Below, one piece after another: positions 5,280-9,980 of a stretch of DNA of 17,775 nucleotides. Origin of the DNA: an uncultured Ruminococcus sp. GTDB taxonomy: Bacteria > Bacillota > Clostridia > Oscillospirales > Ruminococcaceae. The DNA is taken from positions 1 through 17,775 of the forward strand of contig CAMAIG010000006.1 in NCBI GenBank assembly GCA_945835085.1, in the 5' to 3' direction. Both the position numbers and the translations under genes were made by a program. The notes beneath the pieces are model-generated. The model worked only from the letters and a program-made list of their open reading frames with translations, was not told where the DNA came from and ran no database searches. How positions within the stretch are numbered: the first letter of the stretch is position 1; each line of letters opens with the position of its first letter.

Positions 5280-5870
5280 TTATTCTTTGTAGCCGGGAGC
5301 TGCGCTTGCGGGGAAGTATATAGGCTCGCCGGTATATTCGATCTCTACCTTGGGAAGCTGGTTTACGACAAACTCTATGCTGCCCGGAACAAATTCCATG
5401 GCAGGTCTTGGGCTGACGTCCCAGTCCATATTGAGGGTGTCTGCGGTATAGTTGATGCTCAGTGTGTTTCCTGTCCAGCTGATATCGGGACCCTCCTTGG
5501 GAAGAAAGTCCATAACGGTTTCAAGGGTCTTGCTGGCTTTCTGTGCTGCAAGGGAGGAGGGTGTTGCGGTGCGGTCGGCAAGAGCGTTTCCTTCGTTTAC
5601 AATTGTTGCGGTCGCCTCGTATGCTATCCTCATGCCCTTATCGGCTTCGTCCTTGGCAAAGGTGTCGATATTCTTGTGTCCGTAGCCCAGGCTTTCTCTT
5701 GCTGCGGAATTGTCGATCTGCACCTTTATGGGGTCTGCCTTTATCTGCATTCCGCCGGGATTTTTGCTTATCTGAACTTTGGGAGCGGAGGAGTCCTGCT
5801 TCAGTTCAGCTCTTGTAACATTGACCTCTATATTAATGGGAACGGTTGTAATACTTAACAGCTGATTCAT
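5280..5870 (-). CDS. YviE-like DUF6470 family protein
   Basis: A 196-residue soluble protein without signal peptide or membrane segment. Position between flgL and fliW is that of yviE in B. subtilis, and the build fits: an N-terminal stretch of alternating hydrophobic residues, a mid segment ESLGYGHKNIDTFAKDEADK, and a C-terminal IEFVVNQLPKVEIEYTGEP with YFP near the end. The biochemical role of the family is not established; constant linkage to flgL and fliW suggests a part in late flagellar assembly. The ATG (5870) follows AAGGGGG with 7 bases of spacing. I recognise it by order and general sequence character, not by a catalytic motif. Confidence 0.85.
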   Translation of the reverse strand: MNQLLSITTVPINIEVNVTRAELKQDSSAPKVQISKNPGGMQIKADPIKVQIDNSAARESLGYGHKNIDTFAKDEADKGMRIAYEATATIVNEGNALADRTATPSSLAAQKASKTLETVMDFLPKEGPDISWTGNTLSINYTADTLNMDWDVSPRPAMEFVPGSIEFVVNQLPKVEIEYTGEPIYFPASAAPGYKE

Positions 5871-5892: not shown

Positions 5893-7389
5893 TTATATAA
5901 AGTCAAACAGGCTCTTTGGAAGGACCTGCGAGCCCATTGACAGGGACGCCTTATAGGCTGCGTCAATGGTTTTCCAGTTGGTGATCTCAGATTCAAGATC
6001 GGTTCCTTCGATCTCGTTCTGCTTATCCTGAAGGCTTATTCTGTAAACAGAATTCTTTTCAATATGGTAATCCATATTGTTCTGCTTGATGCCGAGGTCT
6101 GTTATTGCATTAAGCACCAGGTTGTTTGCGTTATCAAGCTTATCAATGTTCTTGTTAACGGTGGGATAGTCGCCTGCTCTCAGTGCCTTTGCAGTATCGT
6201 AAATAAGCTGGATAAGATTTTTTGCATCTCCGTCCTTGTCGGTCCCGCAGCCTGTTATCTTTGCACCGTTAAGGGAAAGGTCAAGGGCGGTGGCGTCAAG
6301 CTTGGAGTAGTTTATTCCAAGACCTATATCAACATAGATGGGATTGGTTCCGGGGAATGCGTCTGCATTGCCCTCCTGACCCGGCTCAAGAGGAATGTCG
6401 ATGGTCTTTGTTCCTGCCATTTTGCCGTTTTTGTCATAGTAAACTATGGTGCCTCCGCTGACAGCGTCAAGGAGATCCTGACCGTCCAGATTAACGGGAA
6501 CGTCGTTATAGCATACTATTCTGTCGAGAGGAGCGGATTTTCTGTCGTTTTCGCCTACAACGGTAAATTTAACAGCGTTTTTAGTATCGGGGCCGTCGTA
6601 ATAAACATCGCCGTCATATTTATCCATGTCGGTTATCTCATTGCCGTCCTCGTCGTAGAACTTCTGATCGCTCTTATAAACGGTTACGGTGTTGCCGTTA
6701 AGATCCTTTACGCCGCCTGCACCGTCTGCATATGCGGGGTATCTCTGACCGTCCTTGTCATAAAGCACGGTATCTGCCTCTGCTGCGGCAAGGTCGATAA
6801 CATTGCCCTCTTCATCGTAAAAATCCTGATCGTTCATGAAGAGAGTATTTATCTTTGCACCGCCCTGCTCTGCCGTATCGGGGATATTTCCGAAGCCGGG
6901 AGCGTTTATCTCATTGCCGTCCTTGTCAAAGACTCTTACGGAGGAATAAACCATGAAGGGGGTCTTGTCATTGCTTGTGCAGCCGAACATCTGTCTTTCG
7001 GAGAAATCACTGTTCATATCCTGTATCATGTGACCTGCAAGCTCCGAGATCTCCTGAGCTATGATGTCATACTCTGTCTGGCTCATGGTATCCTGAACGG
7101 AATCTACCTTGGTATAAACATTAAGATAGGTCTTGTTTGCGATATCGTAAAGTGCGTCCTCTGCCGCACAGAAAAGGTCCTTTGCGGTCTTGCAGTTTTC
7201 GTCGTAAACATTGAGATTTTCCAGAGATTTTCTTACATGAGCAGCCTTTGCCGCTGAAACGGAATCCTCGGAGGCTCTTGTATATTTCTTCTGGCTCAGG
7301 ATCTTTGTTTCTGATTTAAGGAGATTGCCCAACAGAGAATTGTTATTCTTGAGGTAGTTTGTGGTATATGCTCTTGTAGTAACTCTCAA
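5893..7389 (-). CDS. flgL: Hook-filament junction protein FlgL (HAP3), enlarged, TTG start
   Basis: FlgL joins the FlgK zone to the flagellin filament. The N-terminus MRVTTRAYTTNYLKNNN and the segment KKYTRASEDSVSAAKAAHVR are typical of FlgL and the flagellin D0/D1 helices. The C-terminus (residues 390-498) is again a long helix ending in LPKSLFDFI. Residues about 149-326 are an insert of short beta modules related to those in the neighbouring FlgK. Length is 498 residues against about 298 in B. subtilis. The start codon is TTG, chosen because AAAGGAG lies 9 bases upstream, the N-terminus is then exactly FlgL-like, and the next in-frame Met is at residue 102. The ribosome binding site overlaps the flgK stop. 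Five cysteines are present (66, 74, 137, 293, 381). Confidence 0.94.
   Translation of the reverse strand: MRVTTRAYTTNYLKNNNSLLGNLLKSETKILSQKKYTRASEDSVSAAKAAHVRKSLENLNVYDENCKTAKDLFCAAEDALYDIANKTYLNVYTKVDSVQDTMSQTEYDIIAQEISELAGHMIQDMNSDFSERQMFGCTSNDKTPFMVYSSVRVFDKDGNEINAPGFGNIPDTAEQGGAKINTLFMNDQDFYDEEGNVIDLAAAEADTVLYDKDGQRYPAYADGAGGVKDLNGNTVTVYKSDQKFYDEDGNEITDMDKYDGDVYYDGPDTKNAVKFTVVGENDRKSAPLDRIVCYNDVPVNLDGQDLLDAVSGGTIVYYDKNGKMAGTKTIDIPLEPGQEGNADAFPGTNPIYVDIGLGINYSKLDATALDLSLNGAKITGCGTDKDGDAKNLIQLIYDTAKALRAGDYPTVNKNIDKLDNANNLVLNAITDLGIKQNNMDYHIEKNSVYRISLQDKQNEIEGTDLESEITNWKTIDAAYKASLSMGSQVLPKSLFDFI
6412..6945 (-). repeat. FlgL insert built of Y-D-x-x-G-N modules shared with FlgK
   Basis: FlgL residues 149-326 repeat a pattern of Tyr/Phe-Asp-x-(Asp/Glu)-Gly-Asn followed by Ile/Val (VFDKDGNEI at 153, FYDEEGNVI at 190, FYDEDGNEI at 244, YYDKNGKM at 317). 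Residues 206-255 (DNA 6625-6774) align over about 50 residues with the FlgK repeat unit: an LY-D-G opening, a central ADGxGG, a G-x-x-V-x-VY strand, then the FYDEDGN end. This is direct inspection; no structural prediction was run. Confidence 0.7.
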
Positions 7390-7406
7390 CCTAATTCACT
7401 CCTTTA

Positions 7407-9980
7407 TCAGGTTCCCACAACGCCTGTGCCGTTTATGAGCTTTTCAAGGCACTGGTCCATTGCGGTTATCATTCGGGAAATGGCATTGTACCATTTCTGA
7501 TAGTTCATCATGTTAACGCCTTCCTCGTCCATGGACACGCCCATTACCTCTTCACGGGCGTCGGAAACGCTGTTGAACATTACTGTGGTGGATTCAAAAT
7601 CGCTCAGCTCATATTCAAGCTGTGAGCCGATGGTGTTTCCGCAGTTTGTTACAAACTCGCTGAAGGTATATTCCAGAGGCTCGTCGCCAAAGTCATACTT
7701 CTTGTCGAATGCGGAAAGTATCTTATTGAGGAACGCATTGTCCAGCTCGTCGTAGTTGTAGTCACCTTCCTCGGTTCCCTGGGGGTGAACGCATCTGAGC
7801 GGGTTGTCGTTCCATGTTTTTGCTGTGACGAGATTTGCAACGGTTTCGGCTCCGTCAAATTCAAAGAGCTTGAAGGGAACGTATTCCTCCTCTGCCTTTT
7901 TCCTTGCTGCGTCCATATCGTCCGCGGTGGCTGCGGGGTTTGCTTTAAGAAGAGCGCTGACTGCGTCATCTCCTGCCTTTGCCTTAGCCTCTTTGTTATA
8001 CTCGTCATAGAGGGCATTGAAATTTGTCACCATTGTTTTTGCCAGTGAGCGGTAGGTTTCCTCGTAATATTTGATGCCCTTGTAGGAATTTCCTCTAAGA
8101 CCGCTGTACCAGCCTTCGCCGTTATACATATCGAACAGACCCTTTAATGAGCCACCGCTCAGGGTGTCGGTTTCTTCCGTAAAGCTGATGGCGTATTCGG
8201 GCTTTTCGGCAGAGGTGATATGCTTGGTAAAGATAGGGTCGTATTTTACTCCTGCCTTTGCAGCGGCAGCCATAAGCTCTTCCTCCTTGCGGAAGGCTTC
8301 CTCAACGTTGCCCGATTCAATAAGGGAGTTGAGGTCTACGATCATATCGCCGAGTCCTGCGTCTTGAAGCTCCTTTGTAAGCTCTCTGAGTGCTCTGGTC
8401 CAGCCCTTGTCGGTATTTGCGGAGCTGATATAAAGCTCTGCAAAGTTATATTCTATTGTTTCGGCATCAAAATTTCCTCTTACGGTGATCTTGTTGCCGT
8501 TTTCGTCGTAAACTATGGAGCCGTCGTTTATGGTTCCCCAGTTTTCGATGATATTTCCGTCCTTATCCTTGAAAACGGATTCGCCTACCACATAGACATT
8601 TGCCTGCTTGCCGTCCTCTGTAAGGTAGCCGCCTTTGCCGTCGGCAGTAAGCTTGGAATCCTCGCCATTTGCAAAGTAAAGCTTTGTGCCCTCGGTAATA
8701 TTGCCGTCGGGAGAGAGCGGCAGATCATTTCCCTTTTCATCCTGATACTTTACATTGTCAAAGCCAAGAACTGTGACCTTCTCGCCTGCGGCATTAACGT
8801 ATCCGCCGCTGCCGTCGGCAATAAGACCTGTATCTGTTCCGTCCGATGTATAGAGCTTTGTTCCTGCGGGAGGATCCGTAAGCTCATCGCCTGCATCATT
8901 GTAAAATTTATCTTCCTTGGTAAAATATACATTCACAGCATCGCCGGCTGCATTAACATATCCGCCGTTTCCGTCAGCAGTAAGACCTGTATCTGTTCCG
9001 TCAGCTAAAAGAAGCTTAGTGCCTTCGGGGAACTTGCCGTTTTCATATGTAACGATCTTATTGCCGTTTTCATCATAAGCGGGCTTATATTCAAGATACA
9101 CGGGTGTTGATGTCAAGGGATTTCCCGCTGCGTCCTCGATGATATCCTCCTTGTCGGGAGCAAATTTAACATCTACTCGTGCATATTTATCCTTTTCAAC
9201 AAGAAGCTTTGCCCCTGTTTCAACGGTAAAGGAACCGGTGGTTGTTTCGGTAACGGTGATGTTGATATACTCGGAAAGCTCGTCGGCAAGCAGATTGAAC
9301 TGATCCTTCAGCTCAAGAGGTCCATACTGGCTCTCGGTCTGATAGCCTGTGTTTGTGACATAAACGTCGTTCATCTGAACGTAGCCGTCTTCTATCTGCT
9401 TATTAAGGCTTGCCATTTCCTTGAGTATGAAGTTTACTCTTGTGGTGGTGTTGTCGATATCCTTCTCGGTGGAGATCTGGGTATCCTTGATACGGGTGTC
9501 GAAATTTCTCAGAACGTTGATAACGGATCTTGCGGAGTTTATGCAGATGTTTGCAAGGTCTGTTCTGTCTGCTCCCGTTGCGGAGAAGGACTGAAAGCTT
9601 GCGCTCCATTTGTTCATTATGGCGGTAAGACCTGTGGTTTCGTTCTCAACGTCGTCAATGATATCCTCGATATCCGCAAGCACGGTGGATTTTGAGCCGA
9701 TATCGCAAAGCTCGCTGCTGTATTTTCTAACCTTTGCATCAAGGAGCTTATCTCTTGTATGAGTAACGCCGATGGCATCTGCACCCTGACCTGCAAGGGA
9801 GATGCCTGTGTTATAGTTTATTGAACCCTTTGTATTTGCAACGGAGCATACGTCGAGCCTTTGTCTTGCATAGCCCTCGGTTCCGATGTTTGTGATATTG
9901 TGACCTGTTATATCAAGGGATTTCTGTGCCAGCTGGAGAGCGTCCCTCTGCACATAAAGCCCGAAAAAGCTTGAAGCCAT
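7407..9980 (-). CDS. flgK: Hook-filament junction protein FlgK (HAP1), enlarged
   Basis: FlgK is the first junction protein laid on the completed hook. The N-terminus has the axial-protein signature (residues 8-50: LYVQRDALQLAQKSLDITGH, NITNIGTEGYARQR) and the C-terminus has GVSMDEEGVNMMNYQKWYNA with a final amphipathic helix, both diagnostic for FlgK. Residues 181-240 hold the family's RVNFILKEMASLNKQI helix. Residues about 293-502 are inserted tandem repeats (separate entry), followed by a helical section with Ala/Lys-rich stretches (555-700). At 857 residues it greatly exceeds the B. subtilis protein (about 507). It contains six cysteines (45, 92, 146, 730, 780, 844), uncommon in axial flagellar proteins. 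The ATG follows AAAGGA, 21 bases after flgN. Confidence 0.95.
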   Translation of the reverse strand: MASSFFGLYVQRDALQLAQKSLDITGHNITNIGTEGYARQRLDVCSVANTKGSINYNTGISLAGQGADAIGVTHTRDKLLDAKVRKYSSELCDIGSKSTVLADIEDIIDDVENETTGLTAIMNKWSASFQSFSATGADRTDLANICINSARSVINVLRNFDTRIKDTQISTEKDIDNTTTRVNFILKEMASLNKQIEDGYVQMNDVYVTNTGYQTESQYGPLELKDQFNLLADELSEYINITVTETTTGSFTVETGAKLLVEKDKYARVDVKFAPDKEDIIEDAAGNPLTSTPVYLEYKPAYDENGNKIVTYENGKFPEGTKLLLADGTDTGLTADGNGGYVNAAGDAVNVYFTKEDKFYNDAGDELTDPPAGTKLYTSDGTDTGLIADGSGGYVNAAGEKVTVLGFDNVKYQDEKGNDLPLSPDGNITEGTKLYFANGEDSKLTADGKGGYLTEDGKQANVYVVGESVFKDKDGNIIENWGTINDGSIVYDENGNKITVRGNFDAETIEYNFAELYISSANTDKGWTRALRELTKELQDAGLGDMIVDLNSLIESGNVEEAFRKEEELMAAAAKAGVKYDPIFTKHITSAEKPEYAISFTEETDTLSGGSLKGLFDMYNGEGWYSGLRGNSYKGIKYYEETYRSLAKTMVTNFNALYDEYNKEAKAKAGDDAVSALLKANPAATADDMDAARKKAEEEYVPFKLFEFDGAETVANLVTAKTWNDNPLRCVHPQGTEEGDYNYDELDNAFLNKILSAFDKKYDFGDEPLEYTFSEFVTNCGNTIGSQLEYELSDFESTTVMFNSVSDAREEVMGVSMDEEGVNMMNYQKWYNAISRMITAMDQCLEKLINGTGVVGT
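8475..9104 (-). repeat. Tandem repeat region inside flgK (three full units of 53-58 residues plus half units)
   Basis: FlgK residues 320-372, 373-430 and 431-487 each open with GTKL(L/Y) and continue xADGxDTGLTADGxGGYVNAAG-like, then a V-x-V strand and a (F/Y)-x-D-x-x-G-(D/N)-x-(I/L) end. Partial units lie before (293-319) and after (487-502). At DNA level the stretch at 8791-8843 matches 8950-9002 in 48 of 53 positions with a period of 159 bases, so the first two units duplicated recently or are being homogenised. The third unit has diverged more. Confidence 0.88.

Follow-up and report, generated by a model that had tools for sequence, protein, structure and literature searches.

The hook-filament junction proteins FlgK and FlgL encoded by this uncultured Ruminococcus share one co-linear domain that includes an entry and an exit hairpin, and not merely a repeated unit. 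We consider it probable (about 0.6) that this is a single small all-beta hairpin domain with two descendants, one in FlgK and one in FlgL, which was copied once. On this reading the domain would consist of short hairpins with D-x-x-G turns set in outward loops, in the D1b region of FlgK and in the loop that follows K-T-P-F in FlgL. A single copying between the neighbouring genes, more likely from flgL to flgK, would have been followed by separate evolution of the two copies, with FlgK passing from one to three units in two lineages. With 11 FlgK and 11 FlgL subunits per junction, as in other species, the copies may form two outer rings that clad the junction, perhaps touching like-to-like, and the extra FlgK units might lengthen the reach of the lower ring, although we hold the rings and what follows from them less firmly.

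The window (the whole stretch of DNA analysed, 17,775 nucleotides) carries on its minus strand a flagellar operon of FlgM, FlgN, FlgK, FlgL, a DUF6470 protein, FliW, a small ORF, FliD and FliS, all but the small ORF being named by Pfam. The DUF6470 protein gene (window 5280-5870, minus strand) lies between flgL and fliW, and the small ORF at 4830-4552 we take to be CsrA. FlgK was identified by NCBIfam TIGR02492 (184.5 bits against a cut-off of 170.75) and by Pfam FlgK_D1 and Flg_bbr_C, both above cut-off, and the termini and helical D1 are present in FlgK and in FlgL alike. The two genes are adjacent, with 17 bases between the flgK stop and the flgL start, which is a TTG codon at window 7389. 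At 2.17 Mb in 420 contigs, the host assembly is incomplete, with a completeness of 77.6%.

Table 1. Positions of flgK, flgL and the parts of their inserts in the window, with the basis of each assignment.
Feature	Residues	Window position	Strand	Remark
flgK		7407..9980	-	857 aa; hook-filament junction protein 1; hosts the triple-unit insert
FlgK whole insert	274-508	8457..9161	-	within the part aligning with the D1b subdomain
FlgK entry hairpin	293-319	9024..9104	-	co-linear with FlgL 174-205 (profile and strand pattern)
FlgK unit 1	320-372	8865..9023	-	unit HMM
FlgK unit 2	373-430	8691..8864	-	unit HMM
FlgK unit 3	431-486	8523..8690	-	unit HMM; nearest is the single unit of relative P0003
FlgK exit hairpin	487-508	8457..8522	-	aligns with FlgL 261-280
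flgL		5893..7389	-	498 aa; hook-filament junction protein 2
FlgL domain copy	174-280	6550..6870	-	FlgK-only profile A7 matches at window 6568-6870
FlgL entry hairpin	174-205	6775..6870	-	profile and strand pattern
FlgL unit	206-260	6610..6774	-	unit HMM; strand pattern resembles the FlgK units
FlgL exit hairpin	261-280	6550..6609	-	profile and strand pattern

A preliminary description, made from the sequence alone, had noted central units in FlgK and FlgL that are alike over about 50 residues, and this likeness was borne out: the FlgL unit agrees with the three FlgK units at 20/49, 20/47 and 18/47 aligned residues, with scores of 80, 81 and 65 that were reached by none of 2000 shuffles per pair under two schemes. 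BLASTP of whole FlgK against whole FlgL, one against one, gave E = 3.6e-7, and an HMM built solely from the three FlgK units gave FlgL a score of 29.5 bits, whereas shuffled FlgL sequences (1000 + 1000) reached 12.3 bits at most. The motif quoted in that description is looser than stated, its (F/Y)YD-x-x-GN-x-I end being literal in FlgL only, with FYNDAGDEL, KYQDEKGNDL and FKDKDGNII as the FlgK equivalents, but the FlgK/FlgL likeness itself stands. Columns T2, L4, G9, A16, D17, G18, G20, G21, G27, V32 and G45 are invariant across the four units of the window; across 20 units from relatives G27 is the sole invariant column, with L4, G9, G20, Y41, D42 and G45 nearly so, and ADGxGG is complete in one of ten FlgL rows, that of the window's own FlgL.

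The similarity extends beyond the unit to a co-linear domain of about 105 profile columns which includes the preceding and the following hairpin, the profile alignment running from the hairpin ahead of the unit to a V-x-G-x-x-D exit in both inserts. Relatives were collected by protein searches, yielding 12 FlgK (P0001, 98% alike, being counted as own) and 24 FlgL sequences (P0005 being the own protein), with a further sample of 15 stretches from relatives' genomes. Three profiles recur below: a unit profile (A6) made from 20 units out of 24, a FlgK domain profile (A7) from eight of ten single-unit FlgKs, leaving out P0033 and P0036, and a FlgL profile (A8) from nine of ten FlgLs, leaving out P0015. 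Comparison of a profile of eight FlgKs with one of nine FlgLs, all from other species, gave a significant match (probability 99.1, E 7.9e-19, 105 columns, 36% identity), and a pair of ten and ten gave E 3.8e-19 and a score of 113 over 104 columns. An earlier pair of five FlgKs and 11 FlgLs (own included), with a shortened FlgK row of G006, scored 98, against column-shuffle maxima of 25.0 and 26.1 (two sets of 100) and 15.3 when reversed. Among 36 proteins, a FlgK HMM from ten relatives found residues 174-273 of the own FlgL at E = 3.2e-16 (50.9 bits), and a FlgL HMM from ten relatives matched several stretches of the own FlgK, with E = 1.1e-14 (46.1 bits together, 26.6 for the best single stretch, the FlgKs of G005-G007 scoring 24.9-27.8). 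Searched against all six frames of the own, incomplete genome, A7 matched FlgK and then only FlgL (E 7.4e-15), the next match standing at E 0.025. The confident profile-profile match, the HMM cross-hits in both directions and the same predicted strand order (below) make the two inserts homologous, as had been proposed.

Since hairpins with D-x-x-G turns are frequent, real decoys were used. Family and class searches had returned nine outside stretches, of which by eye five resemble DUF4367 proteins, one a mobilisation protein and two surface proteins, and one belongs to a FliD (Pfam FliD_N). A decoy profile made from five of the nine, all unrelated hairpin proteins, reached a score of 44 (27 columns) against FlgK and of 54 (59 columns) against FlgL. 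Off-register self-alignment of each FlgK and FlgL profile gave 43.7-49.4, so that part of any score is periodicity, and the FlgK profile aligned off register with the FlgL profile gave E 3.3e-9 and a score of 57.7, against 113 over 104 columns in register. The generic hairpin motif therefore accounts for at most about half of the FlgK-FlgL score. Separation from decoys is weaker by plain HMM than by profile pairs: the FlgK HMM gave the own FlgL 50.9 bits against 28.5 for the best decoy (the FliD fragment), but with the FlgL HMM the single FlgK stretches (23-28 bits) did no better than the DUF4367-like decoys L085 and L087 (27.5 and 27.0 bits).

A hairpin pair FDKNGN...YYDKDGN was seen in stretches L085, L086, L087, L088 and L089, in proteins of other families; of the two proteins scanned, that of L085 contains Pfam DUF4367 and that of L088 does not. 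We propose that this is a small hairpin pair which is either mobile or convergent. The DUF4367-like proteins carry the same pair, with profile scores of 44 and 54, but differ in that the match is weaker and shorter, lacks an entry and exit of the FlgK/FlgL type and sits in another host protein. The FliD fragment (L080, from genome G415, of another genus in the same family) shows a run of hairpins at residues 218-322 of a 515-aa frame; against the FlgK domain profile it aligned over 67 columns with E 4.3e-9 and a score of 55, which exceeds the FlgK decoys (44) and lies near the off-register background.

FliD of the window itself is not supported as a third carrier: its profile score of -0.8 bits was reached by 716 of the 802 shuffles listed (1000 made), and the FlgL domain HMM gave E 0.59. 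A faint likeness in FliD residues 385-440 had been mentioned earlier without being claimed, and there is a weak pairwise score (as high in 23 and 18 of 1000 shuffles for FlgK-FliD, and in 69 and 80 for FlgL-FliD), whereas the profile match is not significant, although matches do fall on that stretch, at 393-423 and 380-446.

The FlgL and FlgK structures were predicted separately, from alignments without any protein in common. Mean pLDDT was 82 for FlgL (87-93 by ten-residue blocks over residues 171-280) and 75 for FlgK (68-86 over 281-500), and both models show hairpins in the insert. According to DSSP, each of the four units has its strands near positions 3-5, 11-16, 22-24, 29-34, 40 and 46-47; those of the entry and exit hairpins agree as well, and FlgK unit 2 has an additional helical turn in its model. 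The strand order predicted for FlgK and FlgL is thus the same, as compared by strand pattern and not by superposed coordinates, and similar sequences may alone yield similar strands. Full-length fold searches gave no insert-specific match among the 50 listed each time, these being filled by D0/D1 matches, and this does not argue for a new fold; the matches listed were FlgK, FlgL, flagellin and FliD chains, together with unrelated, mostly helical chains.

The FlgK insert starts where the alignment with Salmonella FlgK 9go6_A ends, near 9go6_A residue 250; in C. jejuni FlgK, D1b is given as residues 214-289, a part modelled against the hook protein (PMC5691160). In FlgL the insert comes after K-T-P-F, where the first block aligning with B. 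cereus FlgL 5ziy ends, and downstream of it the model has strands at 311-331 and helices at 375-379, 392-404 and 408-461. PMC12221982 describes the FlgK and FlgL D2 domains as exposed and reports, for C. jejuni, layers of 11 FlgK and 11 FlgL. From these insertion positions, set against the exposed D2 of other species, we infer that both inserts point outward from the helical junction core.

As to origin, one old copying event between flgK and flgL is the likeliest explanation. Within the genus a FlgL match was found in ten of 20 genomes (the own included), in all ten of which both genes were read. Four of these ten FlgKs carry the domain (the own and those of G005, G006 and G007), and the other six form one clade with support of 100/98, their partner FlgLs retaining part of the unit only (the G011 FlgL ends at a contig end). 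Insert-bearing FlgKs group at 61/20 only, so gain and loss in FlgK are not separated. A further unit profile (A1) at E 0.01 found nine of the 20 genus genomes, with all 13 places in flgK or flgL. Besides the own protein, 11 module-bearing FlgKs were collected, P0002 with three units and ten with one (P0036 being shortened); the 24 FlgLs comprise 11 with one full unit, P0016 with one and a divergent copy, six with a partial unit, five enlarged without a clear unit and P0028 with none. In P0016 the apparent second, divergent copy lies, by eye, within residues 175-330, which would be a duplication on the FlgL side. In L046, L047 and L048 (from G005-G007) the FlgLs are 680-683 aa long, the insert being far larger but bounded by the same flanks, and the FlgKs have a single diverged unit.

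Rather unlikely, in our judgement, is separate acquisition of the domain by both genes from an outside pool of mobile hairpin modules. Similar hairpin stretches do exist elsewhere, in G436 at E 5.4e-9 (on a protein with Pfam DUF4367) and in the FliD fragment from the other genus (67 columns with the FlgK profile, E 4.3e-9), and in seven genomes at a greater distance (G021, G024, G028, G030, G034, G041 and L074) neither FlgK nor FlgL gave a domain match below E 0.1. Against this reading, A6 at E 0.001 matched 7 of 396 family and 7 of 391 class genomes, the own genome in both, and beyond FlgK and FlgL of this genus it found the nine weak stretches, at 21-38 bits against 63-83 for full units (those of G106, 4-48, and G801, 6-54, span most of the unit). 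With A7 at E 1e-4, two of the 396 family genomes matched, both of this genus, and the profile scores to the pool come to no more than about half of that between FlgK and FlgL.

Convergence, with short D-x-x-G hairpins having arisen independently in the two inserts, is already disfavoured and we regard it as very improbable: the off-register FlgK/FlgL alignment (E 3.3e-9), the off-register self-alignments, the decoys that equal single FlgK stretches with the FlgL HMM and the rarity of a complete ADGxGG among the FlgL rows would all fit it, but the in-register score is about twice those of the off-register and decoy alignments, with entry, unit and exit in the same order. Recent or continuing gene conversion keeping the modules alike is extremely improbable, for although the genes lie 17 bases apart with the module in both, their units fall into separate clades (100/99), same-genome pairs are no closer than swapped ones (in the four pairs compared), ungapped DNA repeat families present in both genes reach 30 nt at the longest, with the FlgL reference and its best FlgK copy 80% alike, and gapped DNA alignments of the units are 62-68% alike.

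The preference for a single copying event draws on a tree of 30 units, in which 18 FlgK units split from 12 FlgL units at 100/99; this tree has no outgroup and by itself gives neither donor nor direction. Four genomes hold two copies (the own, P0003/P0007, P0030/P0013 and P0032/P0010, the last three pairings being inferred), and the mean score of their same-genome FlgK/FlgL pairs is 104.5, compared with 106.75 for the full set of 24 pairings, of which 14 score as high. Since the FlgK and FlgL clades are separate and same-genome pairs no closer, one old sharing event is likelier than continuing conversion, and the sharing would be old relative to these species. The earlier suggestion of duplication or recombination between adjacent genes is thus likeliest in the form of a single old copying, the same evidence speaking against recent recombination. 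In both proteins the module has diverged faster than the rest, with 42-57% against 64-79% identity in FlgL (nine relatives) and, for FlgK unit 3 and exit, 48-63% against 66-74% (ten relatives). The direction flgL to flgK appears likelier, the one ground being that the domain or a remnant of it is more widespread in FlgL; rooting of the FlgL tree did not help, as the outgroup did not fall on one side of a branch and the branches were very long.

Repetition of the unit within FlgK, also noted at the outset, is supported as duplication. P0001, a FlgK 98% alike from another assembly, has three units too, so the triplication is no assembly fault of the window. FlgK units 1 and 2 group at 84/84 in an earlier tree, and in the 30-unit tree stand in an open fork (83/90) that also holds the G005-G007 units; unit 3 pairs with the P0003 unit at 97/91 in the earlier tree and adjoins it, without forming a strict pair, in the later one. 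In the 30-unit tree the three P0002 units fall together with P0034 and P0035, which have one unit each (92/88). Given these different neighbours, the two FlgK expansions were probably separate, and a passage from one to three units in two lineages is the most likely course. The unit trees omit P0036, the divergent second copy in P0016, the half-units found in G002, G004, G009, G011, G012 and G018, and the FlgLs with enlarged inserts from G005-G007; the gene trees omit G024, G030, G034 and G041, the FlgL tree also P0017-P0020, P0022-P0024, P0026 and P0027, and FlgKs P0029-P0036 are absent.

At the junction, contact or reinforcement and passive cladding appear about level as roles for the domain, with an adhesin below both. 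In Burkholderia a like-to-like contact between FlgL D2 and FlgK D2 has been proposed (PMC6155364); for Shewanella, PMC11839096 reports that the domains not engaged in ring linkages are FlgL D2 and FlgK D3. The fast divergence seen among the module sequences does not favour a tight conserved contact. That the domain is a passive, fast-drifting surface cladding without a partner, tolerated outside the core, is possible though doubtful: its divergence is faster than that of the rest of the protein and it is missing from the P0028 FlgL and from six FlgKs of the genus, but across 20 units the turn glycines and Y41-D42 hardly vary, and FlgK and FlgL retain the same order of strands, which suggests a constrained fold.

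A role as adhesin or glycan binder is distinctly unlikely. It would suit loops that we place outward and a variable number of units, and the two best PDB sequence matches of the unit point that way, one being a lectin at E 0.057 over 29 positions and the other an S-layer protein at E 0.12, both at noise level like all other matches in that search. A Pfam scan of 20 units, by contrast, yielded no binding family and no family above cut-off (ten families with E up to 1, the best 0.0062, with one or two members each), a scan of whole FlgK and FlgL gave no above-cut-off family within the insert, and aromatic residues are raised in the FlgL insert only (12.1 against 7.4%) and not in FlgK (9.4 against 9.6%). 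One junction per flagellum is, moreover, a sparse site for an adhesin. A wider scheme, unlikely as a whole and offered as conjecture, is that outer axial domains spread by copying between neighbouring genes, that the copies face each other as matched junction rings, that how far the lower ring reaches is set by the number of FlgK units (0, 1 or 3), and that the FliD of the other genus is a third user of the same building block.

The preliminary description had assumed that different axial proteins normally share only their terminal helices, a premise that is not supported: according to a crystal study of 2018, Xanthomonas FlgL D2 resembles FlgK D2, and Xanthomonas FlgL (5ziz, 5zj0) and Burkholderia FlgK (4ut1) have a common D2 fold, a beta-sandwich (PMC6155364). 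As described there, an accessory all-beta outer domain occurs in both junction proteins and is absent from shorter orthologues, and an accessory beta domain in both FlgK and FlgL is likewise what we find here. The differences are several. The kinship of the D2 domains comes from structure (RMSD 1.8-1.9 A over about 80 C-alpha), whereas here it is visible in sequence; D2 is an eight-stranded beta-sandwich (5 + 3 strands), whereas in our models the domain appears as successive hairpins, the unit being 55 residues long; and Xanthomonas FlgL D2 lies between alpha3a and alpha3b, whereas alignments, as opposed to superposition, here place the FlgL insert apparently after K-T-P-F (all D2 features from PMC6155364) and the FlgK insert apparently in the D1b region. 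Burkholderia FlgK also has, besides D2, a further outer domain D3 of similar fold (PMC5691160), which is a likeness to the repeated FlgK units, but here three tandem units stand inside one insert and single-unit relatives exist.

That FlgK and FlgL can have the fold of an outer domain in common is therefore already known (PMC6155364), as is a second similar outer domain in one FlgK (PMC5691160). New, as far as our searches of the open-licence literature reach, which gave no description of this FlgK/FlgL domain, are another domain, apparently other insertion points, kinship at the level of sequence and countable units. Domain sharing between two junction proteins is here legible from sequence, and because relatives have FlgKs of 0, 1 or 3 units, the order of events can be dated and the function of an outer junction domain tested through a naturally optional part. 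The case illustrates how outer parts of the flagellum can be remodelled. It also advises caution, which matters for flagellar annotation in gut metagenomes, in that lineage-specific outer domains can be common to different axial proteins.

Both inserts are acidic and glycine-rich, with a pI of about 4.1 and glycine contents of 14.0 and 11.2%, and the module may bear a resemblance to calcium-binding loops.
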